Origin: Hexactinellida sp. DTS-2022
Lineage: Eukaryota > Porifera > Hexactinellida
Length of the DNA: 64,000 nucleotides
Assembly (NCBI GenBank): GCA_028753945.1
Contig: JAPNXP010000015.1
Location: 1,116,001 to 1,180,000, forward strand
Direction: 5' to 3'
In this document: positions 14,978-46,336 of the stretch, piece after piece
How the letters are laid out: every line of letters starts with the position of its first letter
Numbering within the stretch: the stretch's first letter is position 1
Made by a program: the position numbers and the translations under genes
The notes under the pieces: generated by a model
The model's input: the letters and a program-made list of their open reading frames with translations, nothing else
The model's database searches: none
Told to the model about the DNA's origin: nothing

Positions 14978-15509
14978 AAAATCCAAAATTGCAACTGTGC
15001 CGACACATGCTCCTTTGGTGGCACTATATTTTGGTGGTGGTTTATTGATAGTGCCTCCAAAGGAACATGCTGTCGGCACTGCTGCAATTTTGGATTTTTT
15101 TTCCAATGTCATCATCATTATGAAGGTGTTAAATTATTTCACAAAGGTGTTTCAGAAGGCAACGACCCTTAGAGTGGTGGAAGTTTCCATTTAGCTCACT
15201 TCATTTGAGAGATATTCAAGTATCAGTAGAATATAATAGGTGATGATTCAGCATTTTGTGTGTGTGTTGGATGACCACACAACACCAACCGAACCATTCG
15301 AAATAGTGAACGACCGAAACCAGTATTTTACCGAAACCGAATTTCGGCCGAAATTAAAATTTCCCACCGAAATACCGAAACCGAATTTCGTTATTTCGGC
15401 CACAATTTACAAGACAATAAATACTATTTTAATTAATCATCACAGTTATTTTAATATAGTTGAGCAAATTTTCAATTACGTAATTTGTGTTACTATCTTT
15501 TTCTAATAA

Positions 15510-15664
15510 ATGAAATCAACTTTTTTGGGTAAGTTTTCTCGACAAAACAATATTTTTTCCGCATTTGCTGGGAGTAATCTGTTCCTTTCATCGGTTACAA
15601 TGTCACCAGCTGTTGAAAATAAACGTTCGACATCAGTGGTAGTCGGAGGTGGAGTAAGATATAA
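15510..15664 (-). pseudogene. hAT transposase, C-terminal dimerisation domain
   Basis: The minus-strand translation contains PPPTTTDVERLFSTAGDIV followed by RNRLLPANAEKILFCRENLP, the classic hAT C-terminal dimerisation motif (E-R-xF-S-xAG ... RxxL ... lxxNLP). Reading stops soon after, in the element's left end. Its upstream coding neighbour lies 28.6 kb away at 44251. If the inserted block and one ATAA copy are set aside, the frame passes directly from LAEQAL to YLTPPP, the expected spacing. The domain is non-functional as it stands. Confidence 0.85.
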
Positions 15665-15980
15665 AAAATCCAAAATTGCAGCTGTGCCGAGGCATGTTCC
15701 TTCGGTGGCACTATATTTTGTTGGTGGTTTATTGATAGTGCCTCCAAAGGAACATGCTGTCGGCAACCTCTAACATTGATTATAAAGCGTAAATAGGCTT
15801 AAATGGTCAATTTTAACATTTTGAAATTTTAGTGATTACGTCATCATGCGATAATGACTCAGCATATTGCGAATCTGGTGTGACCAAAGTGTCCGCATCA
15901 TTAATGTGCATGTTCTATTAAATTATCAGATTTTTATAACTCTTAGAGGGCGGGAATTATGTGCGATAAGTAAATTTTCA

Positions 15981-16455
15981 GGGTTCTCGAAATGTGACAA
16001 TGACGTCATAACTTGTCGAGGTGTGAGAAATTTTGAGTGGAAACCTCAACTTGTTGGCGGGTGCCAAAAATTACCCCCATTGCCAAAATCGCATTTGGAA
16101 ACCGTCCAGTTTCTTCAATCAACTCGTAGCATACAAACAAATATATATATACACCCACCCACCCAGGCTTGTGTTTTAATAGTATAGATAGATAATAATA
16201 CAATCCAAAATTGCAGCCTGTGCCGACGCATGTTCCTTTGGTGGCACTATATTTTGTTGGTGGTCTATTGATAGTGCCTCCAATGGAACATGCTGTCGAC
16301 ACAGGCTGCAATTTTTGATTTATTTCGCCAAGTCATCAACGCCCAAGGTGTGAAGAACCATTTGTTAATTGGTCGGAGTCACAAGGAACGGTAGATAAAT
16401 TTGAAGTTAGTTTCTATCATAAACCATCTTGATTTTAATGCCATTCATTCATTAT
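15981..16455. repeat. Second copy of the 475-bp identical segment
   Basis: Identical to 2924-3398 at a constant offset of 13,057 bp. The left neighbour here is the unique 15773-15980 stretch. Confidence 0.8.
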
Positions 16456-17035
16456 ATATTGTTAATAAATTATAGTATTAGTTATTTATTTTAGCAATGT
16501 TATCCACGGTTAAGTTGAATTAAGTCAACAAATTCCTTATATTATAATATTTTATTTAATCCATTGTATAGTAATACTACAAATAAATAGAAGCCAGCTG
16601 GAATTTATAAGTTAAATCAATATAATTATCGCAAGTTGAATCACTAGAGTAGGATTTAAGAAGGTAAATCAATATAATTATTACAAGTTGAAACAATGGA
16701 ATTAGATTTCACAGTTTTACTGAAATTGAAGTGTGAGTAAACAAAGAAATTTCAACCCCCATTAATGGCAGAAATTGACACCTTTATTGAAATATTTTTC
16801 TCCCATCAGACGCAGAATTTTATGGCGAATCCAAATGTGAAATAAAATTTGGGGGTTTAGTAAAACAATTTTTGAGTTATGGACCAGACAAAATTTGAAA
16901 GGTGTTAAAGAAGTGTCAAAAATTTGTTAATAAAAAATTGTAACCCCAGGTGCAAATTAGACGCTCCCATCGCACCTACATGCCAAGTTTCAGCTCTCTA
17001 TGTATAAAGGTGTGGCCAGGGCACCGTATACGGAG

Positions 17036-19883
17036 AAAAAATAAAAATAAAAAAATTGCAGCCTGTGCCGACGCATATTCCTTTGGTGGCACTATATTTT
17101 GGTGGTGATTATTGATAGTGCCTCCAAAGGAACATGCTGTCGGCACAAGCTGAAATTTTGGATTTTTTTTCGCCTAGTCATCATCACTATGAAGGTGTTA
17201 AATTATTTCAGAAAGGTGTTTCAGAAGGCAACGACCGTTAGAGTCGTGGAAGTTTCCATTTTGCTCACTTCGTTTCAAAGATATTCAAGTTTCAGTAGAA
17301 TATAATAAGTGATGAGTCAGCATTTTTAATGTGAGTGTTGGATCATCACCCAACACCAACTAACCCATTTTAGATGTCGAATTAAAAAAATTGTAAAAAT
17401 ACATTTTTTTAACGATGTCATCATCACCTCAAGGTGTCAAGACCCACTTGTATAGGTGGTACCTGGCATAAGGACCAATTGATAAATTGAAAGTTTGTGT
17501 ATATCTTGTATCATCTCTGAGATTAATGAAATTTAGCTAATTAGCATAAAAATTTAATTAATGTATTAATTATTTAACACCATTATTATATACAGCAAAT
17601 TAAATTATGTTCAATTATTTGCAATAATTATTAATTTAAATTGAATTTCACTATAATGTTTGAATTCCACGCACTCGATAACCCCAATAATCCAATTGGA
17701 ACCGTCTATAAGTTAAATACAAAAGGAATTAATTATAATTAATTACGTCAGTACATTAATTGTGCAAGAATATTCTCGCCGAAATATATATAATCACTTA
17801 ATCTGTCGTTGTTGTGGAATGTAAAATCTTAACTGTTCTATCATAAACCATCTTGAGTTTAATGCCATTCATTCATTATGTAGTGATAATAAGTTATATT
17901 ATTTGTTAATTATTTTAGCAATGTTATCCACGGTTAAGTTGAATTAAGTCAACAAATTCCTTATATTATAATATTTTATTAAATCCATTGTATAGTAATA
18001 CTACAATTAAATAGAAGCCAGCTGGAATTTATAAGTTAAATCAATATAATTATCGCAAGTTGAATCACTAGAGTAGGATTTAACAAGTTAAATCAATATA
18101 ATTATTACAAGTTGAAACAATGGAATTAGATTTCACAGTTTACTGAAATTGAAGTGTGAGTAAACAAAGAAATTTCAACCCCCATTTATGGCAGAAATTG
18201 ATCCCTTTATTGAAAATTTTCTTCTCCCATCAGACGCAGAATTCTATGGCGAATCCAAATGTGAAATAAAATTTGGGGGTTTAGTAAAACAATTTTTGAG
18301 TTATGGACCAGACAAAATTTGAAAGGTGTTAAAGATGTGTCAAAAATTTGTTAAAAAAAAATCGTAACCCCAGGTGCAAATTAGACGCTCCCATCGCACC
18401 TACATGCCAAGTTTCAGCTCTCTATGTATAAAGGTGTGGCCAGGGCACCGTCTACGGAGAAAAAATAAAAATAAAAAAATTGCAGCCTGTGCCGACGCAT
18501 ATTCCTTTGGTGGCACTATATTTTGGTGGTGATTATTGATAGTGCCTCCAAAGGAACATGCTGTCGGCACAAGCTGAAATTTTGGATTTTTTTTCGCCTA
18601 GTCATCATCACTATGAAGGTGTTAAATTATTTCAGAAAGGTGTTTCAGAAGGCAACGACCGTTAGAGTCGTGGAAGTTTCCATTTTGCTCACTTCGTTTC
18701 AAAGATATTCAAGTTTCAGTAGAATATAATAAGTGATGAGTCAGCATTTTTAATGTGAGTGTTGGATCATCACCCAACACCAACTAACCCATTTTAGATG
18801 TCGAATTAAAAAAATTGTAAAAATACATTTTTTTAACGATGTCATCATCACCTCAAGGTGTCAAGACCCACTTGTATAGGTGGTACCTGGCATAAGGACC
18901 AATTGATAAATTGAAAGTTTGTGTATATCTTGTATCATCTCTGAGATTAATGAAATTTAGCTAATTAGCATAAAAATTTAATTAATGTATTAATTATTTA
19001 ACACCATTATTATATACAGCAAATTAAATTATGTTCAATTATTTGCAATAATTATTAATTTAAATTGAATTTCACTATAATGTTTGAATTCCACGCACTC
19101 GATAACCCCAATAATCCAATTGGAACCGTCTATAAGTTAAATACAAAAGGAATTAATTATAATTAATTACGTCAGTACATTAATTGTGCAAGAATATTCT
19201 CGCCGAAATATATATAATCACTTAATCTGTCGTTGTTGTGGAATGTAAAATCTTAACTGTTCTATCATAAACCATCTTGAGTTTAATGCCATTCATTCAT
19301 TATGTAGTGATAATAAGTTATATTATTTGTTAATTATTTTAGCAATGTTATCCACGGTTAAGTTGAATTAAGTCAACAAATTCCTTATATTATAATATTT
19401 TATTAAATCCATTGTATAGTAATACTACAATTAAATAGAAGCCAGCTGGAATTTATAAGTTAAATCAATATAATTATCGCAAGTTGAATCACTAGAGTAG
19501 GATTTAACAAGTTAAATCAATATAATTATTACAAGTTGAAACAATGGAATTAGATTTCACAGTTTACTGAAATTGAAGTGTGAGTAAACAAAGAAATTTC
19601 AACCCCCATTTATGGCAGAAATTGATCCCTTTATTGAAAATTTTCTTCTCCCATCAGACGCAGAATTCTATGGCGAATCCAAATGTGAAATAAAATTTGG
19701 GGGTTTAGTAAAACAATTTTTGAGTTATGGACCAGACAAAATTTGAAAGGTGTTAAAGATGTGTCAAAAATTTGTTAAAAAAAAATCGTAACCCCAGGTG
19801 CAAATTAGACGCTCCCATCGCACCTACATGCCAAGTTTCAGCTCTCTATGTATAAAGGTGTGGCCAGGGCACCGTCTACGGAG
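17036..19883. repeat. Identical 1,424-bp tandem duplication
   Basis: 17036-18459 and 18460-19883 read the same wherever compared, including small chance ORFs at 17099 and 18523 that give the same 68 residues. The unit runs from one FB1 to the next and includes one full module pair. Sequence left of 17036 also resembles the unit but with several differences. Lack of divergence means a very recent event or an assembly artefact. Confidence 0.85.
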
Positions 19884-21962
19884 AAAAAAAAAATTGCAGC
19901 TGTGCCGACGCATGTTCCTTTGGTGGCACTATATTTTGGTGGTGGTTTATTGATAGTGCCTCCAATGGGACATGCTGTCAGCACAGCTGCAATTTTAGAT
20001 TTTTTTTCGCCATGTCATCATCACTATGAAGGTGTTAAAATATATCAAAAGGTGTTACAGAAGGCATCGACCCTTAGAGTGGCGGAAGTTTCCATTTAGT
20101 TCACTTCATTTTAGAGATATTCAAGTTTGAGTAGAATATAATAGCTGATGACTCAGCATTTTTTATGTGAGTGTTGGGTCTTCACCCAACTTCAAATAAC
20201 CCATTTTAAATATCGAATTAACAAAATTGTAAAAATACATTTTTTTGACAATGTCATCATCACCTCAAGGTGTCAAGACTCACTTGTATAGGTGGTACGT
20301 GGCATAAGGACCAATTGATAAATTGAAAGTTTGTTTCTATCTTCTATGATCTCTGAGATTTATGATATTTAATTAATTAGTATAAATAATTATTAATAAT
20401 ATTTATAATTTAACACCAATTTCAATGTCAACATATATTTATTAAGTTTAATTATTTTGTCATAAATAATTAATTAATTAATTTGGCTATCAAATTTCAA
20501 TTCCGCACACTCGATAACCCCTAATAAACAAATTGGGAGCATCTATATAAGTCATATACTGACTTAATTAATTATTATTAATTACGTCAGTATATTAACA
20601 GTGCAAGAGTATTCTTGCAGAAGGAAATATAATCACATAATCTGTCGTTGTTATGGAATGTAGAATCTTAGTTTTCAATTGGAAAATAGAAGCCTACTCG
20701 ATCTCACAAGTTGAATCAATATAATAATAACGAGTTGAAACAATAGAATTAGATTTAACACTTTCAATTGAACTGAAGTGTTAGTAAACAAAGGAAACTT
20801 GCAACTCAATTGTGGCACAAACTAAGTACAATTTGAAAATTCGTGCACTGTGAAAAGGTGTAGAATTTAATTCTCTATCGAATGCATATAAATAGAATAT
20901 ACGCGCACTATTTATTGTTCTTTTTCTAATATTAAACAGGTGCAAAAATGTGTCCAAAAAAATGTGATAATAAAACGTGACCCCAGGTGCACATCTGTAA
21001 CCCATGAGACACATATCCTGAAAATTTGGGCTCTTAGTTAGTAAAACTCTGTTCAGTAGAGAGGCTACGGACTAATAACTAACCAAAGCACTAAGATTAG
21101 AACTGGGCCACTATACTATAGTATAGTCGGCACAGTAATAATAATAATATTAAAGGCAGTAAGATTAGAACTGGGCCACTTTACTATAGTATAGTCGGCA
21201 CAGTAATAATAAAAATAATAAAGGCAGTGATTCCAATACTGGGCCACTATACTATAGTATAGTCGGCACAGTAAAAAATTCAAAATTGCACCCTGTGCCG
21301 ACGCATGTTCCTTTGGTGGCACTATATTTTGTTGGTTGTTTATTGATAGTGCCTCCAAAGGAACATGCTGTCGGCGCAGGCTGCAATTTTGGATTTTTTT
21401 TCGCCAAGTCATCAACGCCCAAGGTGTGAAGAAGCATTTGTTAATTGGTCCGAGTCACAAGGAACGGTAGATAAATTTGAAGTTTGTTTCTATCTTAAAC
21501 CATCTTGAGTTTGATGCCATTCATTCATTATGTATTGATAATAAATTGTATTATTAGTTATTTATATTAGCATTGTTATCCACGGTTGAGTTGAATTAAG
21601 TCAACAAATTCCTTATATTATATTATTTTATTTAATCCATTGTATGGTAAATTAAATAGAAGCCAGCTGCAATTTATAAGTTAAATCAATTTAATTATCG
21701 CAAGTTGAATCAATAGAGTAAGATTTAACAAGTTAAATCAATATAATTATTACAAGTTGAAACAATGGAATTAGATTTAACAGTTATGTTGCAGTGCAAA
21801 CGCGTTTTTGGTGTAATCGCGATTACACTGGTGCAATCGCGATTACACTGATATGTTGGCGTGATCGCGTTCACACCGGTGTAATCGCGATTTAGGTTTT
21901 TAGTTGAGCTTGTGGTTAGTTTAGATAGTTGGTGATACTGGTATACTAATGAGAAGATTGTA

Positions 21963-22223
21963 CAGTACAGCCTCCCTAATTCGAACCCTTGCCAGTCCGA
22001 ACAGGAGATCCAAAAATATTTTTCGTATAAATTTGGGGAAAAATTACAATGAAATTATTAAAAAATAAGTCTCAGATTAGGTAGTATACTATATGTTTAG
22101 TTTGGATTAAAAAGGTTTGGACAAGTTGGTTCGGATTATCGAGGTCTGATTTTAAGTTTAACTAATCGGAAAAGATTTTTTTTGTATCAGAATACCTCTG
22201 TTCGGATTAGAAAGGGTGTACTG
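21963..22223. mobile_element. pogo/Tigger-type MITE, family 2, copy 2
   Basis: The left end reads CAGTACAGCCTCCCTAATTC and the right-end complement CAGTACACCCTTTCTAATCC, with TA flanks (21961-21962, 22224-22225). It interrupts the Ginger at the inner edge of its left TIR, so it is younger than the Ginger. Confidence 0.7.
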
Positions 22224-22496
22224 TAACTAGTATAATCATGTAATCATATAATCATCACATATCAGATGGCAGGCAAACTGTCAAAGAACATTTACAAATC
22301 TTTGATCAATTTTTTGTATACTAAACAGTCATCAAAGGTAGAACTTGCAAAAATCTATTGAAGTTAACTTCAGATGATGATTATAGTTCTGCTTTGCATA
22401 CTAGGTTCCAATTTGTCAATTTGGGGTATAGAAAAGCAAAGAAACGGCTAGCTTATAAATATACTTGAATTGAGCGATGGTTAGTAGCATTTGGAG

Positions 22497-24543
22497 ATGT
22501 CCCGAAGTGAATTTGTAGAAAAATTAAACTCCTTAACCCGAGTTTATTCGAGTGAAATCTACACTCCAGCCGATATTGCAACAAAGATTGCTATATTACA
22601 ATCTGGAAAACCGTGTCTTCCACAGAAAGAAGTGACAAGGTGGAAACGTGTGCATGAACGATTCAAGTTGCTATCTTATCAAGGTACTAACATACTATAT
22701 CTCCGAGAACGAAAAAATCATCCTGCAAAGCGAGTTCTCTCAACTGAAGAGCTTTTTGACACTTTGGAGAGGCTGCACAAAGTTGAAGGAGATCATACAG
22801 GCAGAACTAGGTTATACAAGCGTGCTTCACAGGAATTCTACGGTGTTACTGAGAGAGTGTGTGGCATTTTCGTTAAAACTTGTATTGTATGTCACCTAAA
22901 GAAGTCAAAGAAGTCGTTAAAAACCATAGTTGTTAAGCCAATCGAATCAACAGACTATCTCTGCAGAGCTCAGGTAGATTTGATTGATATGAGCGATTTA
23001 AATCTAGAAGCAAACTTGTCTCCAGATGTTGTCACTCCATATCGCTACCTCATGGTCTATTTGGACCACTTCACTAAAAGATAAATCTAACACCGCTGAA
23101 ACGAAAAACTGGAGAGGAAGTAACCGAAGCTCTTCTGGATATTTTCTGTGAATCTGGCCCCCCGCACATCCTCCACTCGGATAATGGCAGAGAATTCTCC
23201 AATCACTTGTTGTTTTCAACATTAGCTGAAAAATTACCATCCATCAAGATAATTCATGGTAAACCACGTCACCCTGAGTCACAAGGAGCAGTAGAACGAG
23301 CAAAACGCGATATCAAAGATGCTCTCTTCACGATTATGTTTGATAATGGGAATGATCAGTGTTGGGTCAAGTATCTTAGGTGGGTGAAGTGCCACAAGAA
23401 TACGAGTTATCACAGCCATTCGAAGCTGTATACAACAAAAAGCCATCATTCGGTCTGTCTCACCTTGGTATTGCCCATGAATTCTGGGGATCAATAGATA
23501 CAGAAGAAGATCTAGCTTTTTTTCAAAGAGAAGTGAGTGCACCTGCTGCTGCTGAAGTACGTTCGTCGGAAGTCTCTTTTGACGAAGTTAATGAACTACT
23601 CAGTCACTCTTCTGATTCTGTAAGCCATCATAGCCCAGTGCCATACAATTCTAAATTTCGACCTCAGATTGACGAGTACGAAAGTCAAATATGTTATCCG
23701 TTACCTGTTGGAACTATAGTTACAGATGGCTTTGAATCTCCAATCGAGTCAAATTACAATCCTTTCCAAACTGGCTTTCATCAATCTGAAATAACGGAGC
23801 AGTCAGAATTGGCTAGCTACCAAACTCAGACGCACCATCACAGCCCTGACCTCCCTTTTCCTAGGTCTCCTACTCCACCTCGTTATATCGAAAGAATACA
23901 TGACAACGGTGCTTTAATTAATATGGATTGCGTTGCATGTGGTCGAAAGACGTCCGGTGTTCATTCTTGTCCACATTGTTTTCGTTTCATTCATACGATA
24001 TGTGGCAGATTAGTAGGTGAAGAAGGATATGGTAGCAGTGTGGTATGTCCAGCATGTGATCTTGCATCACGCAAAGAAACATGTAGTACGATGCGTGCTG
24101 GCGTGAAGCGAAACCAAGAAAGTTCGCATCACAGAATGCTGAATTCGAGCTCTAAGAAGTTTAAGCCAGCACATATAGGAAATACAGTTGTAATACCAAT
24201 TTCAGAGCCGGACAAAGTCAACTCTTTGGGTCCGCGGAATATTATTGGATGCATTACTGGTAAAGATGACTCTACATACACTGTTGGCACTTCCCAAGGC
24301 ACAATCTCAGTTGCTTATACTAGGAATCAGTTTGAGCTATGTCCCAGTAATCTGCTCTCTATCGAAAGTGTCCCGCATGAGACCGTAACACAGACAGAGG
24401 TTACACAGAGTGCTTCCCTTGGAATTACTAAAGGGTCTTCCTGTCGGTGCAAGTTTTGCAAAACGCAGAGGTGCCCATGTAAGAAGTCAGGGAGAGCTTG
24501 CAACTCTAAATGTCACAAGGGCCATAGCTGTTTCAACAAGTAA
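22497..24543 (+). pseudogene. Ginger transposase (H2C2 finger, DDE integrase, PHD-like finger, Cys-rich tail)
   Basis: The first ATG in the open frame is 22497 (MSRSEFVEK). In order: an HHCC zinc-binding region (HKVEGDHTGRTRLYKR ... CIVCHLKK), the DDE core with first Asp in AQVDLIDM, second in HSDNGREF and the Glu in HPESQGAVERAKRDI, the PFEAVYNKKPSFGL segment, a PHD-like finger (CVACGRKTSGVHSCPHC ... CPACD) and a C-terminal cysteine cluster (CRCKFCKTQRCPCKKSGRAC). This order matches invertebrate KRBA2-like/GIN1-like proteins of Ginger elements. The reading frame is disrupted about twice. No intron signal explains the breaks. Confidence 0.85.
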
Positions 24544-25178
24544 TATTCTAGCCAGTTCATTAGTTAGCTATTTGGAGCTTGCAAACTTGTATTTGTACCA
24601 CCAAATCTGTAGGCAATCAATAATCCTTTTATCGATCTAAATCACGTTCATGTTCAGTAATTATATCTAGTTCGATTAATTTTTAAGTTATATAACAAAT
24701 TTCAATTATAATAAGTACAGTAAGTTGAAATAGATCAAAGATCCGTAACTCTAGAATCTAGATTAGTATCACACAAGAATCAACAAATCTAAAATCAAAT
24801 AAAATTGTATATAACGAAGGCCTTCGCTCTCGGTCGATTCCCGACGGACCACTCTCTCATAAACTATTTTATTTCCTTCGACTTTACCTAAGAATAGGAA
24901 AGCTAAGCGAATCATACGGTATTTGGCAAAAAACTTGAGTCAATCTTTCTTTTCACAGTTTGCCTGTCATCTTGATATGACTATGCGATTTTACAAACTA
25001 CAATCTTCTCATTAGTATACCAGTATCACCAACTATCTAAACTAACCACAAGCTCAACTAAAAACCTAAATCGCGATTACACCGGTGTGAACGCGATCAC
25101 GCCAACATATCAGTGTAATCGCGATTGCACCAGTGTAATCGCGATTACACCAAAAACGCGTTTGCACTGCAACAGTTA

Positions 25179-28100: not shown

Positions 28101-28540
28101 ATCGAAAGTTGAAACAATAGAGTAAGATTAACAAGTTAAATCAATATAATTACAGTCAGGTCTGCTTATTATGAACAAGATTTCGACTGCTTAATATGAA
28201 ATTTTTTTATTATGAACAAACCCTACGGTCCCAATTTAAAATTTACATAGGGTTTGTATTAAGTTGAGTTCGCTTATTATGAAGTCACTCTATTATGAAC
28301 ACAATTTTTGGACCCTTGAATGTTCATAATAAAAGAACCTGACTGTATTACAAGTTGAAACAATAGAATTAGATTTAACAATTTTACTGTGAGTAATTAA
28401 ACCACTATTTATGGCATGAATTAAACCGTTTATTAAAATTTGTCTTCTCCCATAAGACACACAATTTTAAGATGGATCCAATGGTGAAATAAAGATTGGG
28501 GGTTTAGTATAAGCCCATAAACTATAAAGCTCTGGCCAGG
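25179..28540. repeat. Foldback-bearing repeat array, third block
   Basis: FB1 near 25514-25637, 26846-26970 and 27694-27817, and FB2 at 26807-26843. The 27694 copy interrupts a module at ATAAATTAAAT, which is continuous in sister modules. The block ends abruptly after GCTCTGGCCAGGG, a phrase that elsewhere continues CACCGTCTACGG; foreign sequence with the Helentron and a small gene follows. Confidence 0.8.
28153..28345. mobile_element. pogo/Tigger-type MITE, family 1, copy 2
   Basis: A 193-bp element inserted into the array phrase ATATAATTATTACAAG. The interrupted site and the many intact sister sites show a TA duplication (28151-28152, 28346-28347). It lies in the opposite orientation to the copy at 207-401. 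Confidence 0.85.
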
Positions 28541-28767
28541 GGGCCGAATGTTAGGAAGACCTGGTGTAGATAATTGAGAATCCTAATTAGTTCAGAACTT
28601 CTCTATTGAAACATTTGTGTAGTATAGATGATACCTTTGTGAGTTATCAATAATAACAAAGAATTCAATTCTTCAATTGTAGAGATAGAAACCTAAGAAT
28701 AATATACTATTCAAACATGTTGTTCTTTTGAGTTGCGTGAGTTGTCAACAAGAGAACACAAATAGAA

Positions 28768-28775
28768 TATAAAAG
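28768..28775 (+). promoter_or_regulatory. TATA box of the small three-exon gene
   Basis: TATAAAAG lies 75 bp before the ATG at 28850, which would place transcription start near 28800 and leave a short leader. Confidence 0.5.
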
Positions 28776-28849
28776 CCTTGATTATAATATATTACACAAT
28801 AGAAATCCACGAATATTCTTTACAATTTATCATCATTTCCTATTCAATA

Positions 28850-29582: not shown

Positions 29583-29639
29583 CTTACTACAATCACAACC
29601 ATTACACAAATAACATTATTATTAGCTTAATTCTTTTCT

Positions 29640-29790
29640 ACTACTACATATGCCACGCCCCCCGTTTCTCCCTCACACGTCACGTCCCCCGTTTCTTTCT
29701 CCCTCACCTCCTAGCTCTATAATGAACTTACTACAGTGACAACCATTACATAAATAACATTATTATTAGATTAACTATTTTCTTATTACA
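29640..29790. repeat. Partial duplicate of the small gene's 3' end
   Basis: Two degenerate repeat units (GCCACGCCCCCCGTTTCTCC) followed by CCTAGCTCTATAATGAACTT copy the end of exon 3 and its 3' flank (29560-29630) about 130 bp downstream. This is a local tandem duplication; it has no open frame of its own. Confidence 0.75.
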
Positions 29791-30268: not shown

Positions 30269-30295
30269 AATTACTAATTGCACCATGATCCCTGT

Positions 30296-33600: not shown

Positions 33601-36600
33601 CCTACAGATTTAGTACCGGGGTCACTATTGGGATCTACAGTCCAGGGATTGTCGTTCCCTGGATTGTCTACCTGGAAGTCAGTATCCTCAATAACCACTG
33701 CACCCTCATTGTTAATTATTTCCTCAATAGCAATCCCATCAAAGTTAAGCTCATCGGGGTCCAAGTCCTCGAGGATATTAATAGCTTCGTCAATTGAGGA
33801 TAGATCTTTGCTTTCAAATAATTCCCTATTCTGAGTAATCAGATTAAGATGGGTAGCATACATAGACTTAAAGTCAATATTGTCAGTATCACTAGTGTCA
33901 GTTCTCCATGGTATAAACAGCATTAACTGTTCTCTATAAAAGTTAACTTCGTCCTGTATAATACTATACCTTCTAAATCGGATAATTTTAGCTTTTCGAC
34001 GAAGTCTCATAAAACCTGTATCTTTGAGAGGAAATAATCTCGGATTATCGACCAGGGACGCTGCCTCGTCTTCCATATTTTCCTCCTCAAAGTCGGGATT
34101 AGTTTTACATATTCGCTTATTAGATTGGAATTCATACCAAGCGGCAAACTCTGCTAGGCATGTTTCCTCTAACTCATCAGGTCGTTGCATGTAGTGCTCA
34201 ATTAGACCTGACAGAAGTATATCTACAGAATCCTGTTCCATACCCATTAGAACGGGTTTAGACTTGAGTATCCTAACCCGTTTATTAGCAGGATTGGTGT
34301 TAATATAGACATTAGCTCTGCTGCACTTAGAGAGAGGGAGACTGAGGAGATGGTAAGAAACCTCCTGAGCTGATACCTCGCTACAGCTCTGAAATTTGTA
34401 AGCAATTCCCCTCAGTCTCTCTTTGATAGTGGCATTGCCTGCTTTCAGATGCATTAAGGCATCTCTCAACAACTTAGACATCCCACGCTGGGACTTTCCG
34501 ATATACGAAATAACGTAAACAGCACAAGCGTATGGATCCAATATGTATTGGAGATCCATATTAGCTTTCCATAAATGCAAAATAGTCTTATTATGAGCAT
34601 TGATTCGTATCTCATTCAAATTTCGTTTCAGAAATATAGTAGGTCTATTTATACAAGATCTCAATGCAGTTATGTATTGCTCTTCGGTAACATAGAGTTC
34701 ATTAAAGAAATCCTGTATCGTTATACTACCCAAGTCAGTATTGCTCTTATCATAGGTATCAATTAGAGTATATATTTTCTTAGCAGTCTCCTTAAGAGCT
34801 GCATTAGCAGCTATCTCCTCTTTGGTGGCCGTGCTGGCATCAAACTCCAATGGTTCTAGAATTTTAGTTGATACCATTGGAGGGTACGGAATACCAAACC
34901 TACAGCGCCGAAACGACTTTTTCTTATAACACGTATTTGTGTGCTTATGTCGCTGTAACTTAATATCATCCTCAGTTATTATACTAGTCTCATCTGGCAA
35001 TTTAACTGAGATAGTACGATCAATAAATTCTATAACTTCATTTAACGAATTGTGGCCATACTTAGGGGCATCTTGTACCCAAAGTAATGAATGCACATGT
35101 GGTGACCCTCTTTGCTGAAATTCTATTCTCAAATAGTAATCAGTCAATTTACCAAGGGGACTAACCTCTGATCGAAGCACCTTAAATAGCTCCTTGGAGC
35201 GGTGATCAAAGTACCTAGCACAAGTGACAGGATCTCTCCTTATCAGATCTGCTCTCTCGCTCCACTGGAATTCCAGAACCTCTTCAACAGACAGCTTAAC
35301 GTCATCGAGGATCTGTTTCAGTATCCTTAGTAGCTCTAGCCATTTAGTCTCAGCAGCAGACAGAGTTAGAAAGAACGTGGGACATCCCAGCTGTCTTATC
35401 ATAGACATCAGCTCTCTCTGTTTCTGCTGCCAGAATGCAGGGGTAGACCGGACTTGCTTCAAGAACTTAAAAGCCTCATCGTCCTCAACCATTCTCTCCA
35501 GATTATCGTCATTGAGAACATCAGACACAGTTATAGCCTGTCCGTCATTAGACTTTGTTTTTCGCATACAAATACTGATAGCACTGTTAAGACTAGTTGT
35601 CTCCACCAGTTTGTACTTAAGAAACAGCAGAGGAATGTTAGTGCTACATCTCCTATCATATCTAGGAAATAAATTAAATAGGCTTAGCAGATTTGAAAAT
35701 TATATTAATTAGAACTTAGTTAATTGTAATTTAGATAACAAATATGTTATTGAACCATGGATTTAACATAATAATTTATACTTTAAGAATATCCATGGTT
35801 GAATAACAAATTAATTATGTTTATAGCAGAGATTGAGATTATAAGTTTTATTAGATAGTATCATATTATTATGTATAACTAACCTCAAAATGTCAGACTT
35901 TGATTTCTTGAGGATCGACAGGTCCTCAGGTAAGTCTCTGCATTGACCAGCAAACACACAAGGGTAAGCTAGTTCCTCTACAAACTTATCCGTGGTTAAG
36001 TACAGAGGCTTCCTCCCTTCTCCAGGAGCCAATTTCATTAGCAGGTTCCCATTAGACAGCAGCAGTGTGTCTAGAGAACCAGGATTAATGGGGAGATCAT
36101 CCTTGGTCTCATCCCAATCATCAATCTCCTTCAACAAGTCCTCAAGGTTATCGAAGAGCTCCTCGATACCAGGAATAGTCTCAGAACCCTGTTCCTCTTC
36201 ATCTATAACTATATCAGAAGGCTCGTCATTCGGGTTAACAATAAAATTAACATTACCAGAACCAGTTCGTGGAACAGAGTTAACCCAATTCTCTGAAACT
36301 ACTACTTTCTCTAGCTTGAAGAGCTCAGTGGTAGAGAGATAGAGAGCTGCTTCTAACACTACATTCGGTCTTATCGTTTCGTATAAATAAGGTTTCGCGA
36401 ACGATAGCCTACGAAACAACTGTAACTGAATGGTTTGGGACTGTAGGAATGTCCTAGGTAACTGATTAACAGTCTTATCTATGTCTATGGGAACATTAAC
36501 AACCATGCCATGCAGTCCGTGCTGTCTCTCCCTGCCCAGAGATCTGATATTCATGAACTCGTGTCTGGGAGATACCAGTCTCTGTTCAATCACAGTCAGA

Positions 36601-38311
36601 CCAGATAGCTCAGGAGGGATCTCGGGAAAAGTTAAGCCACGGCATAACGCTATCTTAGGGACTCTGCCATCTTTGATGTTAATGAGACAGTTCTTACATA
36701 CATACTCAATGTTAAGTGTCTCATAGAGAAAAACCTAAAGGAGAATACCAGTAAATAATTCGTAACAGGATCACCCGCATATTATAATTGACTATGTCTT
36801 TAAATTAATAATATAACTATTAATTTAATAACTTATCCATTTACAGTCAACTCCGCTTAATAGAGCCACCGGTTAATCGGTTTCTCCGCTTAACCGGGTC
36901 AAAATTGCATAGGATTTAGAGCACAGAATGACTGTTTGTCTTAAATATTTTCGGGTAATCGGTTTCTCTGCTTAATCGGGTCAAAACAACCTGGTCCTGA
37001 GGTGGCTCTATTAAGCGGAGTCGACTGTAATTAAATAATTAATTAATTAGCAAAATAAATTATCTAAATATTTAACGTAAAGAATATAATTACCTGTTTT
37101 ACGAAATCAGAGTTGGAAAGATTCGTTGAAACAAGTTTTTCTCTTTTAAGAATAACAACTGTTTTCCTGAAATGGAGACATCCACAACAAGAACAAACAT
37201 ACGTTGGACCTTGAGATATCTGGGAGAAATAACCTTGAATAACAGAGTTAACCTCCTCTCTATTAGTTCTATATCTCTCCAGAACATGTTTGTTGTGCTT
37301 TTCACGCACATTAGGATCGTTCAATCTCTCGGCCACAGCGTCATTATGTTCAGCACGCTTCTCAGGATCCTTCAACCTCTCGGCCACAGCGTCATTATGT
37401 TCAGCACGCTTCTCAGGATCCTTCAATCTCTCGGCCACAGCGTAACTATTCATTGCACGCTTCTCAGGGTCCTTCAACCTCTCGGCTACAGCATCATTAT
37501 GTTCAGCACGTTTATCAGGGTCTTTCAACCTCTCGGCTACAGCATCATTATGCTCAGCACGTTTATCAGGGTCTTTCAACCTCTCGGCTACAGCGCTATT
37601 ATGCTCAGCACGTTTATCAGGGTCTTTCAACCTCTCGGCTACAGCGTCATTATGCTCAGCACGTTTATCAGGGTCTTTCAACCTCTCGGCTACAGCGCTA
37701 TTATGCTCAGCACGTTTCTCTGGGGTTTTCAACCTCTTTGTAAAGTCCCGTAATTGATTTTCGTTGTGCTTAGAAAGAAAATCGGGATCCTCACAATCTT
37801 TATTGAAAAGCTCAAGACGAGCCTCATTCTCAGTTTTACAAAACTCTGAGTCATCAGTTCGTCTCTTCTTGATAGCCGCTCGATTTTTGTCTTTTCTAGC
37901 CCGATATCCTTTTCTCTTCCGAGACTTAGGGGTAGAGATACACTTCTCAGGAGTCATTGGGACATCAGAACACTCGCTAAACAAATCGAGGTCGTTTAGA
38001 GGTACAACTTGAGACGATATCGGAGTCTGTTGTACCGTTTGAGAAGAGAATGTAAAAACATCTGGTTGGGAACATTCGTCTATCTCCATAGAACAAATCT
38101 CTTCCTCTGTTGTTGAACCAGGCCCGGGATTTATTTCGATTCCACCGATCAACAATAATGCGCTAATGGTATTGGCCTCTAGGCGGGTAGAAATGCGCAA
38201 TAATATGTCGATACAAATAGTAGACTTTCTGATAATAGAGTGGGGTAACTGGGACCTATAACGTCCACCCCAGCCACTTATTCTTGCTCTATAGAGCTCA
38301 ATTGAAATCAT
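30603..38311 (-). CDS. Helentron polyprotein (2A-like, 17-aa repeats, Rep, helicase, APE endonuclease, OTU), three exons
   Basis: Exons 38311-37094, 36734-35884 and 35661-30603 use GT-AG introns and join in frame to about 2,375 aa. An in-frame stop three codons before the ATG supports the start. Order: 2A-like GGIEINPGP at 56-64; nine 17-aa repeats; CSCCGC cluster; second Cys pair (VCKNC) and the Helitron N-terminal region (LVSPRHEFMNIR); Rep with HUH motif PHVHS (~878-880) and tyrosines in YVISY (~1072, 1076); SF1/PIF1 helicase with GGGAGVGKS (~1426) and IIIDEISMVG; APE-type endonuclease with LQE, GDFN and SDH; OTU protease with DGNC (~2235-2238) and NHYD (~2367-2370). All catalytic residues I can check are present. 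It would nick, unwind and copy its own strand by rolling circle. Whether exon 1 is one chain with the rest depends on the splice calls. Confidence 0.85.
35662..35883 (-). other. Helentron intron 2
   Basis: Minus-strand donor GAG|GTTAGT and acceptor TTCCTAG|ATATG. Splicing gives ...KSKSDILR followed by YDRRCSTN, the usual junction of the two conserved blocks in Helitron proteins. Confidence 0.7.
36735..37093 (-). other. Helentron intron 1, host of a MITE
   Basis: Minus-strand donor CAG|GTAATT and acceptor TTTAG|GTTTTT; phase 0, joining ...DFVKQ to VFLYETLN. The 184-bp MITE at 36844-37027 lies fully inside, doubling the intron length. Confidence 0.7.
36844..37027. mobile_element. pogo/Tigger-type MITE, family 3
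   Basis: TA flanks (36842-36843, 37028-37029). The ends read CAGTCAACTCCGCTTAATAG and, as complement, CAGTCGACTCCGCTTAATAG. The phrase TTAATCGG is repeated inside. It is inserted in an intron of the Helentron gene. Confidence 0.85.
37310..37740 (-). repeat. 51-bp minisatellite encoding nine 17-aa repeats
   Basis: Units of the form PDKRAEHNDAVAERLKD; eight are close and the ninth is diverged (PNVREKHNKHVLERYR). Neighbouring units share silent bases, which suggests recent copying within the gene. Confidence 0.9.
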
Positions 38312-38644
38312 ATCTAATTAATGTCATAAATATAAACGAAATATAAAATATAAAATATAAATGCAACAGCGTTTGTTACTTTACTTTGTATTTACAAATT
38401 TTCGGTTAAAATTTGTAGTAAAACTTTATAACATAAACGCTAATTGTAAATATAAATAGTGAGAACGAAAAACATAGGTTAGTAATAACAGAATATGAAA
38501 AACATACCTTCAAAAACAGAAGTTTATCACAATGATTCAAAGGATTAAGTCAAATAAAAGAAAGTCAGAAAGTCAAATAATGAATCAAGATACAAATTAT
38601 TTAATTTATACTTGAGAACTAGACAAAATGGAAAACATAATCTA
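38312..38644. other. Helentron 5' flank, no gene seen
   Basis: Very AT-rich sequence upstream of the Helentron ATG. It presumably holds the promoter and the element's 5' end; neither a TATA box nor a terminus could be fixed. Confidence 0.4.
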
Positions 38645-41600
38645 GAATGGAAACCTGTAAATAACAGGTTAAGGTTAATAAATATAATTATAACAAGATG
38701 AAACAATAGATAAATATTTAACAAGTTAAAAATTAATTTAGTTATTACAGGTTTAAACAATAGAATTAGAAACAATATAATTCTTACAAGTTGAAACAAT
38801 AGAATTAGATTTAACACTTTACTGAAATTGAAGTGTGAGTAAACAAAGAAATTTCAACCCCCATTTATGGCAGAAATTGACCCCTTTATTGGAAAATTTC
38901 TTCTCCCATCAGACGCAGAATTTTATGGCGAATCCAAATGTTAAATAAAATTTTGGGGTTTAGTAAAACATTTTTTGAGTTATGGACCAGACAAATTTTG
39001 AAAGGTGTTAAAGATGTGTCAAAAATTTGTTAATACAAAATCGTAACCCCAGGTGCAAATTAGACGTCGACTCCGAATCTACATGCCAAGTTTCAGCCCT
39101 CTATGTATACAGGTGTGGCCAGGGCACCTGCTACGGAGAAATAATAATAATAATAAAAATAATAATAAAGGCAGTGATTCTAATACTGGGCCACTATACT
39201 ATAGTATAGTCGGCACAGTAATTATTAGTTATTTATTTTAGCAATGTTATCCACGGTGATTTGAGTCTAGTCAACAAATTCCTTATATCATTATATTTTA
39301 TTTAATCCATTGTATAGTAATACTACAATTAAATAGAAGCCAGCTGGAATTTATAAGTTGAATCAATATATTTATCTCAAGTAGAAACAATAGAGTAAGA
39401 TTTAACAAGTTAAATCAATATAATTATTACAAGTTGAAACAATAGAATTAGATTTAACACTTTACTGAAATTGAAGTGTGAGTAAACAAAGAGATTTCAA
39501 ACCCCATTTATGGCAGAAATTAAACATATTTTTGAAAATATTCCTCTCCCATCAGACGCAGAATTTTATGGTGAATCCAAATGTGAAATAAAATTTGGGG
39601 GTTTAGTAAAACATATTTTGAGTTATGGACCAGACAAATTTTGAAAGGTGTTAAAGATGTGTCAAAAATTCGTTAATCAAAAATCGTAACCCCAGGTGCA
39701 AATTAGACAGTCCATACGCACCTACATGCCAAGTTTCAGCCCATCAACTATAAAGCTCATACCAGGGCACCGTCTACGGAGAAAAAATAAAAATAATAAT
39801 AATAAAAATCCAAAATTGCAGCCTGTGCCGACGCATGTTCCTTTGGTGGCACTATATTTTGGTGGTGATTTATTTATAGTGCCTCCAAAGGAACATGCTG
39901 TCGGCACAGGCTGCAATTTTGGATTTTTTTTTGCCATGTGATCATCACTATGAAGGTGTCAAATTATTTCAAAAAGGTGTTACACAAGGCATCGACCCTT
40001 AGAGTGGTGGAAGTTTCCATTTAGTTCACTTCATTTTAGAGATATTCAAGTTTGAGTAGAATATAATAGCTGATGACTCAGCATTTTTTATGTGAGTGTT
40101 GGGTCATCACCCAACATCAACTAACTCATTTAAAATATCGAATTAACAAAATTGTAAAAACACATTTTTTTAGCGATGTCATCATCACCTCAAGGTGTCA
40201 AGGCCCACTTGTATAGGTGACTCGTGCCATAAGGACCAATTGATAAATTGAAAGTTTGTTTCTATCTTCTATGATCTCTGAGATTTATGATATTTAATTA
40301 ATTAGTATAAATAATTATTAATATTATTTATAATATGACACCAATTTCAATGTCAACATACAATTATTAAGTTCAATTATTTTGTCATAAATAATTAATT
40401 AATTAATTTATCTATCAAATTTTCTTTTCCGCACACTCGATAACCTCTAATATACAAATTGGAAGCTTCTATATAAGTTAAATACAAACTGAATTATTTA
40501 TAATTAATTACGTCAGTATATTAACAGTGCAATTATATTCTCGCAGAAGTAAATATAATCACATAATATGTCGTTGTTATGAAATATATAATCTTAATTT
40601 TCAATTGCAAAATAGAAGCCAGCTTGAATTCACAAGTTAAATCAATATAATTATAGCAAGTTGAAACAATAGTGAAAGATTTAACAAGTTAAATCAATTT
40701 AATTATTACAAGTTGAAACAAAGGAAATAGATTTCACAGTTTTACTGAAATTGAAGTGTGAGTAAACAAAGAAATTTCAACCCCCATTTGTGGCAGAAAT
40801 TAAACCCCTTATTGAAAGATTTCTTCTCCCATCAGACGCAGAATTTTACGGTGAATCCAAATATGAAATAAAATTTGCGGGTTTAGTAAAAGATTTTTTG
40901 AGTTATGGACCAGACAAAATTTTTAAAGGTGTTAAAGATGTGTCAAAATTTTGCTAACGAAAAATCGTAACCCCAGGTGCAAATTATAATATTTGAATTC
41001 CACGCACTCGATAACCCCAATAATCTATTTGGAACCATCTCTATACGGTAAACACAGAGCGAATTAATTAGAATTAAATATGTCAGTACATTAATTGTGC
41101 AAGAATAGTCTCGCCGAAATTAATAAAAATCCAAAATTGCAGCCTGTGCCGACGCATGTTCCTTTGGTGGCACTATATTTTGGTGGTGGGTTATTGATAG
41201 TGCCTCCAATGGAACATGCTGTCGGCACTAGCTGCAATTTTGGATTTTTTTTCGCCTAGTCATCATCACTATGAAGGTGTTAAATTATTTCTGAAAGGTG
41301 TTTCAGTAGGCAACGAACCTTAGAGTGGTGGAAGTTTCAATTTAGCTCACTGCATTTGAGAGATATTCAGGTTTCAGTAGAATATAATCTGTGATGACTC
41401 AGCATTTTTAAAGTGCGTGTTGGGTATTCACCCAACTCCAACCAACCAATGCAAATTATTTAATTCACAAAATTGTAAAAATACATTTTTTTGACGATGT
41501 CATCATCACCTCAAGGTGTCAAGACCCACTTGTATAGGTGGTACCTGGCATAAGGACCAATTGATAAATTGAAAGTTTGTTTCTATCTTGATCATCTCTG

Positions 41601-44246
41601 AGATTAATGAAATTTAGCTAATTAGTATAAATATTTAATTAATAAATTAATAATTTAACACCATTATTATGTACAGCAAAATAAATAAAGTTCAATTATT
41701 TGCACTTATTATTAATTTAAATCGAATTTCACTATCATATTTGAATTCAGCGCACTCGATAACCCCAATAATCCAATTGGAAAATTCTATAAGTTAAATA
41801 CAAAAGGAATTAATTATAATAAATTACGTCAGCACATTAATTGTGCAAAAAGAATATTCTCGCCGAAATAAATATAATCACTTAATCTGTCGTTGTTGTG
41901 GAATGTAAAATCTTAACGGTTCTATCATAAACCATCTTTAGTTTAATGCCATTCATTCATTACTTATTGATAATAAATTAAATTATTAGTTATTTATTTT
42001 AGCAATGTTATCCACGGTGAGTTGAGTAAAGTCAACAAATTCCTTATATAAATTAATTTAATTTAATCCATTGTATAGTAATGCTACAATTAAATAGAAG
42101 CCAGCTGGAATTTATAAGTTGATCAATATAATTATCGCAAGTTGAATCACTAGAGTAGGATTTAACAAGTTAAATCAATATAATTATTACAAGTTGAAAC
42201 AATGGAATTAGATTTCACAGTTTACTAAAATAGAAGTGTGAGTAAACAAAGAAATTTCAACCCCCATTTATGGCAGAAATTAAATAATTTATTGAAAATC
42301 TTCTTCACCCATCAGACGCAGAATTTTAAGGTGAATCCAAATATAAATAAAGTTTGGGGGTTTAGTAGAACATATTTTGAGTTAAGGACCAAACAAATTT
42401 TGAAAGGTGTTAAAGATGTGTCAAAAATTTGTCAATAAAAATTTGTAACCCCAGGTGCAAATCAGACGTCGACTCCGAACCAACATTCCAAGTTTTAGCC
42501 CTCTATGTATATAGGTGTGGCCAGGGCACCTGCTACGGAGAAATAAAAATAATAATAATAAAAAAAAAATCCAAAATTGCAGCCTGTGCCGACGCATGTT
42601 TCTTTGGTGCCACTATATTTTGTTGGTTGTTTATTTATAGTGCCTCCAAAAGAACATTCTGTCGGCGCAGGCTGCAATTTTGGATTTTTTTTTCGCCATG
42701 TCATCATCACTATGAAGGTGTTAAATTATTTCAAAAAGGTGTTACAGAAGGCATCGACCCTTAGAGTGGTGGAAGTTTCCATTTAGTTCATATAATTTTA
42801 GAGATATTCAAGTTTGAGTAGAATATAATAGCTGATGACTCAGCATTTTTTATGTGTGTGTTGGGTCATCACCCAACATCAACTAACCCATTTTAAATAT
42901 CGAATTAACAAAATTGTAAAAAGACATTTTTTTGACGATGTCTTAATCACCTCAAGGTGTCAAGACCCACTTGTATAGGTGGTACCTGTCATAAGGACCA
43001 ATTGATAAATTGAAAGTTTGTTTCTATCTTGTATCATCTCTGAGATTAATGAAATTTATCTAATTAGTATAAATATTTAATTTATTTATTTATTATTTAA
43101 CACCATTATTATATACAGCAAAATAAATTAAGTTCAATTATTTGCAATTATTATTAATTTAAATTGAATTTCACTATAATATTTGAATTCCACGCACTCG
43201 ATAACCCCAATAATCTATTTGGAACCGTCTATAAGTTAAATACAAAATGAATTAATTATAATTAATTAAGTCAGTCATTAATTGTGCAAGAATATTCTCG
43301 CCGAAATAAATATAATCACTTAATCTGTCGTTGTTGTGGAATGTAAAATCTTAACGGTTCTATCATAAACCATCTTTAGTTTAATGCCATTCATTCATTA
43401 TATATTGATAATAAATTATATTATTAGTTATTTATTTTAGCAATGTTATCCATGGTTGGTTGAGTTGAGTCAACAAATTCCTTATATTATATTATTTAAT
43501 TTAATCAATTGTATAGTAATACTAAAATTAAATAGAAGCCAGCTGGAATTTATAAGTTAAATCAATATAATTATCGCAAGTTGAATCATTAGAGTAGGAT
43601 TTAACAAGTTAAATCAATATAATTATTACAAGTTGAAACAATAGAATTAGATTTAACACTTTACTGAAATTGAAGTGTCAGTAAACAAAGAAATTTCAAC
43701 CCCCATTTATGGCAGAAATTGACCCCTTTATTGAAAAATTTCTTCTCTCATCAGACGCAGAATTTTATGGCGAATCCAATTGTGAAATAAAATTTTGGGG
43801 TTTAGTAAAATATTTTTTGAGTTATGGACCAGACAAATTTTGAAAGGTGTTAAAGATGTGTCAATAATTTGTTAATACAAAATCGTAACCCCAGGTGCAA
43901 ATTAGACGTCGACTCCGAATCTACATGCCAAGTTTCAGCCCTCTATGTATACAGGTGTGGCCAGGGCACCTGCTACGGAGAAATAATAATAATATAAATA
44001 AAGGCAGTGATTCTAATACTGGGCCACTATACTATAGTATAGTCGGCACAGTAATAATATACCAAAGCACTAAGACCAATACTGGGCCACTATACTATAG
44101 TATAGTCGGCACAGTAAAAATAAAAATAATAAAGGCAGTGATTCCAATACTGGGCCACTATACTATAGTATAGTCAGCACAGTAATAATAATAAAGGCAG
44201 TGATTCCAATACTGGGCCACTATACTATAGTATAGTCGGCACAGTA
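38645..44246. repeat. Foldback-bearing repeat array, fourth block
   Basis: FB1 near 39805-39930, 41126-41253 and 42567-42690. FB2 at 39184-39220, 44017-44053, 44080-44116, 44148-44184 and 44210-44246. The last FB2 is the right end of the composite insertion. A segment around 41260-42130 closely repeats 10760-11640. No gene is present. Confidence 0.8.
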
Positions 44247-44250
44247 ATAA

Positions 44251-46063
44251 TGCTTGTTCAGCTAGTTTCTTTTCGTAAAGATTTGTTGATTTTGAATATT
44301 CTTTCCAGAATTCCAAACATTCCTCAGTTACAGTAGCATTTAGATATTTGTCAACTGTGTCTTTTGCATTAGTAAATGAATGGTCCTGGCAAGTACTAGT
44401 ACATTGACTTACTTCGTTCTCTGCTATTATTATCTCCATTAAACTTGTGAAAGAAAGATCCTGTTGATCAGCTGTAACTTTGTCATCGCATCTTGGAGAT
44501 TCAGAAGATGAATTAATAGAATTCGCTACTTTAGAAATTAGCACAGATCTTGCATGTTGAAAATTTGATTTATCTTTGAAGAAATATTTTTATATCGTGG
44601 ATCAAGTAAACAGGAGAGATAATAATGCTCGCAGTTCTCAATGTCTCTAAATCTTTCAATCATAGCACCTTTGAGTCTGTTTTTCATTCTCATTATTCCA
44701 AGATCTTCAGTTGTTGTTTCTAAAGCACGTATGATTGTAAATACAAAGGGAATAGTTGAGCTGATTGATGCTTCTTTCGAAGATAACAACTTTGTTGCCT
44801 CTTCAAAACACTTTAGACATGTGACTATTTTGTCACACAGTGTCCATTCAGCAGATGAGAACTCGATATCTAAATCTATTTCTAATAAAGTAGCGGCAAT
44901 TGCAGGCTTGAGATAGATAAATCTTTGGAGCATGTAATATGTACTGTTCCATCTGGTATCTATATCTTGAATAAGAGATAATCGACGAGATATTCCCATC
45001 TGTTTTTCCTGCTGTTTGTAGAATTCGGAATAGAATATATTGGAGTGATTTGCATGTGTACATAGCTTTCTACACTTTTTAATTAACGATTCTACACTTG
45101 TCATTGAGAATAATTCACGTTTAATCACTAACTGGAGGGAATGATTGAGACAAGGAGAAGATTTTAGCAAACAATTAGGCTCATTGAACGCTGCTGTTAC
45201 ATTTCGAGCATTACCCGAAGGCATAGTTGAACTTTGTTAATTATATCCCATTCTAAAATAACATCTTCTATTTTTTTATAAATGTGTTGTGCAGTGTGGC
45301 GTTCATCGAATGGAACACAGGAAATATGAAAACTTTTACGATGCCAGTCACTGATATAATGAATAATAATTCCTAAATAACCATGATGATGGGCTGACCA
45401 AGCATCCAATGCTAGGGAAACAACTATTGGATTGTCAACTTCTAACTTATTCTTTAGTGCTGTTTTTATCTTAAAATAACTTGGACCGAGCATATCACGG
45501 TAGTACTTCTCGGATGCCAGTTCAAAATTAGGAGTGGATAGCTTTTGATTCCGTAGAAAACCAGGTTTATTAACTGTTGACCACGGCATAAGATCCAAAA
45601 CAATCATTTCAAATACCGACTTATGTAGTCTTTGAGCCTTTTCGCTGTTGAAATCCCAAACTGTTTTACTCTCTACCCAATCAGGAATAGTTGTCTCAAA
45701 TAGATCAATTCTCTGCCTTTTAGACCGTATATTGAAGATTGAATCCTCATTCCTCGATAGTTCTGGAGTATTTTTTATATTTAGTTCACTTTGAGCCGAA
45801 GTTGCTTGAGTCAAATAGATTGGCTCCTTAAATTCAACTGGATGTTTAGATAACATATGGGTTTTCATACCAGAAGTAGTTTGCTTTTTTGGATCCTCAG
45901 AGCCTCGAGAAATGTTTACACTACAAAATTTGCAAACAACAAATTTTTTATCAACTGCACTGATTGAAAAGAATTGCCAAAGTGGAGAACGATTACTGGA
46001 CATATTGCTAATTAAGAATCGAGTACACGACGGATAATTTATGAATACGATAATACGATTCAA
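44251..46063 (-). pseudogene. hAT transposase, BED finger and catalytic body
   Basis: The likely start is the second ATG at 46003 (MSSNRSPLWQFF), right before the BED zinc finger: W, then CKFCSVN, then HMLSKHP. The body follows: SLALDAWSAHHHGYLGIIIH with the first catalytic Asp, PCLNHSLQLVIKR, QDIDTRWNSTYYMLQRF with the conserved D-x-x-TRWNS, and LLDPRYK. Two single-base frame shifts are visible, near 45,210 and near 44,597. The frame ends at 44251 where the composite insertion begins; the missing C-terminal domain is at 15510-15664. This copy cannot make transposase. Confidence 0.85.
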
Positions 46064-46336
46064 AGACTCATATTTGTACTATGGTTTACCAATTGAAAGA
46101 CTATTTGGACAATGGCATTGCACATCTATGGTTTACCAATTAAAAGACTATGTAGATTGTGTCTGTTGAATGTTTATTTAGCACACTTGATAAGTATTCT
46201 TTGCTTATTCAAAAGCATTATAATATCATCAATTTAGCATGATTTCGGTGAAGCCACCGATACCGAAATTCGGCCGAAACCGAAACCGAAATTTGGGCCG
46301 AAAGTTTCGGCCGAAATTAATTTCGGTCGTTCACTA

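Follow-up and report, generated by a model that had tools for sequence, protein, structure and literature searches.

A block of 28.6 kb, which is built as a head-to-tail array of Helentron-family elements and bounded on both sides by Helentron ends, most probably interrupts a young hAT transposon in the stretch of 64,000 nucleotides analysed here (G000:C7:1116001-1180000, in the following "the window"); we put the probability of this reading at about 0.9. The Helentron family is likely the mover of this block and not its cargo. The features are compiled in Table 1.

Table 1. Features of the interrupted hAT transposon, the inserted block and the surrounding array (window positions)
Feature	Position	Strand	Remarks
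hAT 8-bp target duplication, left copy	15296..15303	.	ATTCGAAA
hAT 8-bp target duplication, right copy	46337..46344	.	ATTCGAAT
hAT left piece: TIR and end of transposase gene	15304..15664	-	
hAT right piece: bulk of transposase gene and other TIR	44247..46336	-	
Inserted block, 28.6 kb, head-to-tail Helentron-family array	15665..44246	-	3' end left, 5' end right
FB1', leftmost Helentron 3' end, right arm truncated	15665..15765	-	
Non-autonomous canonical Helitron fragment carried in block	15766..16190	-	
475-bp tract with zero mismatch to 2924-3398 (left edge of outer array)	15981..16455	.	
HINE units	16200..21786	-	includes near-perfect tandem pair 17153-18576 / 18577-19990 of 1424-bp unit
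Ginger-type element in HINE unit	21787..25174	+	
Helentron, FB1 3' end to FB2 5' end	27694..39220	-	within HINE unit at unit position 746/747
Helentron ORF, 1698 aa: Rep, PIF1 helicase, endonuclease, weak OTU	30603..35699	-	
Helentron ORF with DUF6570	35811..36734	-	
Helentron 5'-proximal ORF, 51-bp tandem repeats	37064..38317	-	
HINE units, closing in four tandem FB2 5' ends (43990-44246)	39221..44246	-	
Outer HINE array, discontinuous, insertion target of hAT	3143..15303	-	unit resumes at about 46350

Empty sites and age of the hAT transposon

Searches of the genome (112.4 Mb, 18 contigs) yielded 18 matches for the left piece of the hAT transposon and 27 for the right piece. In all six loci that were aligned across the insertion site the two pieces are contiguous, and uninterrupted copies, for which the first-pass annotation had suggested a search, thus exist. 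The close sisters (L029, L038, L039, L040 and L041) show identities of 98.97-99.27%, and the diverged relative L043 shows 85.8%. L038 is a duplicate of L039 (0 differences in 982 bases), hence the empty site is represented by five independent loci. Seven more loci bearing the hAT transposon (L037, L042, L044-L048) lie outside the cross-site alignment, and several of them lack the site.

In L041, the hAT transposon contains a single ORF of 658 amino acids with BED and hAT dimerisation domains (zf-BED, Dimer_Tnp_hAT), which reads LAEQALLYLTPPP over the position of the insertion in the window. Because the sister loci are contiguous and this ORF is unbroken across the site, the hAT transposon was once whole here and received the block later. 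It had been claimed that the transposon was opened at a single point, and the empty sisters confirm this; the hAT ends and their 8-bp duplication indeed frame 31 kb. The flanks ATTCGAAA and ATTCGAAT are equal in 7 of 8 bp, so that the outer duplication is real, and the host repeat unit picks up again beyond the transposon (unit positions 217 and 228). Terminal inverted repeats, the 8-bp duplication (7/8 in the window) and a BED finger with a dimerisation domain (in the sister L041) are the features found of the hAT class. The assumption of an intact transposase on either side of the block holds with regard to the contiguity in the sisters, but in the window itself the right piece is split into two overlapping ORFs (44538-45236 and 45197-46078).

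The region is highly repetitive and known here from the assembly alone, and an assembly error might have joined unrelated pieces. This explanation is extremely improbable, as the hAT pieces meet at the same transposon base, the outer duplications match and no hAT bases are lost.

The hAT transposon of the window possesses 8 private substitutions in 2,445 positions (0.33%) and differs by 0.67% and 0.79% from the two longest sisters and by 0.20-1.34% from partial sisters. Since the aligned sisters are empty and so few private substitutions are present, the insertion is recent, and the block must be younger than the split of this hAT copy from its sisters. The parts of the block were compared with their relatives as well; only the best candidates were scored, and closer relatives may exist. 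The nearest listed relatives reach 97% for the unit 17053-18476 (its tandem twin aside; 32 candidates scored), 95% for the right edge (40 scored) and 98% for the Ginger-type element. The Helentron shows 97-100% to the closest four listed copies at its 3' end and 99% to two at its 5' end, and for the tract 41191-42198, 39 more copies at 98-99% are listed. Because they are so close to listed relatives, the Helentron and some of the units may postdate the opening of the hAT transposon.

The empty site in the sisters reads AGATATAATAATGC. In the window, the left edge of the block reads AGATATAA and the right edge ATAATGC, preceded by a copy of the repeat FB2 ending in ACAGTA. A target duplication of ATAA had been postulated, but it does not agree with the real empty site: at the annotated block limits the window carries just one A more than the empty site, deletion of the block together with one ATAA leaves a sequence 3 bp short of the site in the close sisters, and site and block end overlap by TAA at most. 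Of the 20 additional FB2 ends listed for the window, 10 are followed by ATAA and 9 by AAAA. The ATAA at the right edge is therefore a frequent companion of the FB2 end, and a duplication of 4 bp is unsupported. The letters of the site fit insertion into an AT-rich target without duplication.

Helentron ends and composition of the block

The assignment of the block edges starts from the Helentron inside the block (11.5 kb). A HINE unit halts at unit position 747 (27693) in front of this Helentron and restarts at position 746 (39221) behind it, with FB1 at one end of the Helentron and FB2 at the other. FB1 was also present at the left (3') end in 5/5 other Helentron copies fetched; judged by eye, these 3' ends adjoin the 5' end of a HINE in four cases and FB2 in one. 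FB2 was present at the right (5') end in three of four other copies. The Helentron-specific 5' region, to which the HINE library gave no match, runs to FB2 on contigs C12 (99.0%), C2 (98.8%) and C7 (81%); the copy on C18 loses homology near window position 38352, and no FB2 end was seen there. As both repeats recur at the ends of other Helentron copies, FB1 represents the 3' end and FB2 the 5' end of the Helentron. Ten bases occur in inverted orientation, as CTGTGCCGAC near the 5' end and as GTCGGCACAG near the 3' end. The HINE units, as non-autonomous partners, have FB1 and, in part, FB2 in common with the Helentron. Beside this, tandem amplification of the 5' end (about 65 bp) was found at 43990-44246, at 14400-14977 (nine copies) and in L057 (nine copies or more).

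FB1 and FB2 had been regarded as independent foldback elements in the first-pass annotation; they are ends of one Helentron family instead. Both fold into hairpins (for the long hairpin of FB1 -64.9 kcal/mol, folded as RNA and without shuffle control) and both sit at the edges of the block, as do the hairpin-forming repeats at the edges of the Drosophila Foldback (FB) elements. A Foldback transposon carries one long repeat at both ends, in inverted orientation, and is accompanied by a target duplication. The edges of the block differ from each other in sequence, being two different ends of a rolling-circle element, and a 4-bp duplication was not found and is contradicted by the empty site. Classification as a Foldback transposon was therefore rejected, and movement of the composite by foldback elements with a 4-bp duplication is highly improbable. 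What stands of the earlier proposal is that a large composite opened a contiguous hAT transposon and that the repeats at its edges define it; foldbacks as the agent and the 4-bp duplication do not.

The 1698-aa ORF of the Helentron shows matches to Helitron_like_N (2.1e-28) and PIF1 (7.5e-23) in Pfam and, behind the helicase, to Exo_endo_phos (4.1e-07, residues 1250-1428). Its translation contains the Rep motif YLRIEFQQRGSPHVH, which by eye matches the Helentron motif given in the excerpts of PMC4067079, where an S between G and P with (F/Y)xR ahead is diagnostic in Rep motif 2. An RPA domain was not found when the three Helentron ORFs were scanned against Pfam; an RPA ORF is present in some Helentrons and does not define them. 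Insertion occurred without target-site duplication at T-rich or TT sites (the hAT site and the site in L043, the latter judged against a diverged empty site), with an uncertainty of one or more in the number of T. The element possesses a 3' palindrome and subterminal repeats in inverted orientation, spaced differently from those of mite elements: about 18 nt separate the 10-nt subterminal repeat from the 3' end, in comparison to 38-60 in the mite elements described in the excerpted PMC4067079. The Rep/helicase with a fused endonuclease, the Rep motif, the terminal palindromes, the inverted subterminal repeats, the AT-rich insertion without change of the target and the non-autonomous derivatives with common ends are all shared with the Helentrons and HINEs (DINE-1-like) treated in these excerpts (PMC4067079), from which the element differs by its very long 3' hairpin (about 110 nt) and its tandemly repeated 5' end.

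A protein search with the Helentron ORF (best 120 of 1,113 matches) revealed six near relatives with 70-91% identity, and named animals with about 42% or less. The 5'-proximal ORF contains the motif IEINPGP, which resembles 2A motifs. A small inverted-repeat element (CAGTCAGGTCTGCTTATTATGAAC) is located in the 3' region of the Helentron (28153-28350) and again at about 207-405; other Helentron copies align straight across 28153-28350. Outside the block, an ORF with an OTU protease domain (59790-60788) is possibly part of another mobile element.

The block consists mostly of tandem repeats, with a unit length of about 1424 bp. The same unit accounts for much of the outer array (3143-15303) and is abundant in the genome (at least 338 matches; 32 scored of 3,886 candidates). 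When the members of the tandem pair 17153-19990 were compared in 14 windows of 100 bases, 13 windows showed 100% identity. Twelve FB1 3' ends are present in the block, eleven with a recognisable right arm and the truncated first one, and about 13.7 kb remain if the Helentron and the Ginger-type element are subtracted. The block as a whole is bounded by the same pair of ends, oriented alike, as the single Helentron within it. The description of a block that starts in FB1, ends exactly at an FB2 and holds a Ginger and a Helentron was accurate in each of these points.

Ginger elements are characterised by a 4-bp target duplication, inverted repeats and an integrase-type transposase. The Ginger-type element of the block possesses perfect inverted repeats of 176 bp; its second ORF matches Znf_SCAND3 (5.8e-10), and the first ORF gave no hit in Pfam. 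As it lies within a HINE unit and has its own GTTA duplication (21783-21786 and 25175-25178), it either came along as a passenger or arrived later. At 1363-1880, inverted arms with GTACGCGTAC repeats were observed, whose ends TGTTGCAGTG / CACTGCAACA correspond by eye to the end letters of the Ginger; going by these letters, this is perhaps a small non-autonomous relative.

Possible routes of the array into the hAT transposon

Movement of the block as one unit was marked as an inference in the first-pass annotation and keeps this status. Its arrival in one multi-unit rolling-circle event with bypassed terminators is our tentative preference, at slightly less than even odds. The Helentron machinery would nick at a 5' end (right) within an array, and copying would run from 5' to 3' (right to left), bypassing several 3' terminators. 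It would then overrun the outermost 3' end (FB1) of the array into an adjoining Helitron fragment and stop at another FB1, and the multi-unit product would insert in the hAT transposon. Later changes may account for the Ginger and for the perfect tandem pair of the 1424-bp unit, and quite possibly for the Helentron, too. In its narrower form, one recent event would have moved a preassembled array, about 13.7 kb long or as much as 28.6 kb with the Helentron and the Ginger already in it, past up to about 12 terminators and dragged the Helitron fragment along; this is possible, if rather doubtful. The empty site in 6/6 loci, the nature of FB1 and FB2 as Helentron ends, the youth of the hAT transposon, the 475-bp junction and the arrays in L043 and L042 were counted in favour of a single event. 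The divergence of 12% between units, the failure to find a whole sister block among the few candidates scored, the young Helentron together with 41191-42198 and the truncated FB1' junction were counted against it.

The Helitron fragment shows at most 93% to other copies (40 of 3,182 candidates scored), and the junction of Helitron and FB1 is matched in 451/451 bases at the left edge of the outer array (40 of 5,272 scored), as part of the zero-mismatch tract of 475 bases. The next match to this tract among those listed has 80%; of the listed places, 100% occurs only at the edge of the outer array, 13 kb away. As the fragment is this distant from other copies and the junction nevertheless identical over 475 bp, it was carried in and not inserted in place. 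Judged from these identities, at least the left end of the block was copied in preformed, from or together with the neighbouring array. To the right of the shared tract, the first unit of the block departs by about 12% from the first unit of the outer array, whereas it is 3% away from the unit that follows it in the block. Exchange within the block at a later time is thus required, and the block is not a simple copy of the present-day outer array. With regard to a donor array collinear with the insertion, just the 475-bp exact tract was found, with few candidates scored per search. A local origin by similarity alone was dropped: several tracts of the inner and outer arrays agree to about 98-99%, but in a control search one of them, 41191-42198, was equally close at 39 other listed places.

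Alternatively, a single HINE or Helentron may have inserted in the hAT transposon, and the array then expanded in place, as further elements entered the TAA-rich ends of older units and as neighbouring arrays took part in unequal exchange and conversion. The near-identical pair 17153-19990 indicates that local expansion has occurred, and stacking is common, as the five Helentron 3' ends mentioned above adjoin a HINE 5' end (four) or FB2 (one, by eye). Additionally, 41191-42198 derives from a young, widespread subfamily, and the Helentron is young, with copies about 1% away at both ends. This route, one of the two main rivals of the single event, is nevertheless somewhat less likely. About a dozen insertions or exchanges would be required within the 0.33% divergence of the hAT transposon; for the unit 17053-18476 the listed copies other than its twin do not exceed 97%, and for the right edge they do not exceed 95% (32 and 40 candidates scored, respectively). 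The Helitron fragment and its junction were hardly made in place.

Recombination or repair, the other main rival, was considered as a third route. With the help of TAA microhomology, a break of the hAT transposon at TAATAAT might have been patched with a copy of the neighbouring array, through break-induced replication with template switches, or a circle cut from an array might have been integrated. The junction between FB1' and the Helitron fragment is truncated and non-canonical, such as a template switch or a deletion would give. The exact tract of 475 bp in block and outer array edge and the TAA common to the hAT site and the unit ends also speak for repair. Both edges of the block are element ends and not arbitrary points of the unit, and two further arrays bear the same type of edge, which makes repair a rather unlikely route.

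These two arrays were detected in other hAT-bearing loci. In the diverged relative L043, an insertion of about 2.1 kb, which holds two HINE 3' ends, opens the hAT near position 146-150; its edges are FB2 (interrupted by a small insert) and FB1, and its site is a T-run with no longer duplication, as judged against a diverged empty site. L042 contains a HINE array of 4.2 kb with FB1 and FB2 edges inside an apparent canonical Helitron (judged by its two ends), which opened another hAT copy between A and T. A whole sister of the block was not found among the few candidates scored (11 of 5,148, 40 of 3,182 and 32 of 3,886). The first of these searches did not list the Helentron of the window itself, the second missed the copy in the outer array, and the block parts 25260-27640 and 38800-41125 lay outside the separate genome queries.

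Insertions of other types were observed as well. At L029-L037 (G000:C11:4202500-4282157), a sister hAT transposon is opened by a separate insertion of 79.7 kb, which is flanked by TTAA on each side and has short inverted sequences at its ends (GGTTAAATTAC / GTAATTTAACC); Mutator-like transposases are encoded by two of the six ORFs scanned. At L038/L039 (G000:C11:7.99-8.00 Mb), a sequence of 9 bp (GCTTGAGAT) flanks an insertion in a hAT copy, and the left part of this copy is present twice, identical over 982 bases, which indicates a recent local duplication.

Composite or end-bypass transposition of Helitrons has already been proposed in print, and the tandem Helitron clusters described in the excerpts of PMC4067079 are likewise head-to-tail arrays that have the ends of the family on either side and include a fragment captured from next to them. 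In comparison to these clusters, the empty site is known here and the host can be dated; movement is concluded indirectly. The oyster Cg_HINE with its satellite-like arrays (PMC7492417, excerpts) is likewise a case of a Helentron family tied to tandem repeats without target duplication, but there short repeats lie inside one element, whereas here whole elements are repeated. We thus regard the block as a well-placed and well-dated case of a process known in kind, not as a new type of transposon.

The case also exposes two traps, as terminal hairpins of rolling-circle elements can mimic foldback elements and TAA-rich element ends can mimic target duplications. The excerpts of PMC4067079 and PMC5148889 leave open whether tandem arrays of Helitron type arise because termination is missed, because copying proceeds by a rolling circle or because elements insert again and again into the same end. 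An array located in a host with known empty sites and tiny divergence makes this question testable at one site. If the single-event reading is true, whole satellite-like arrays would jump, besides growing in place.
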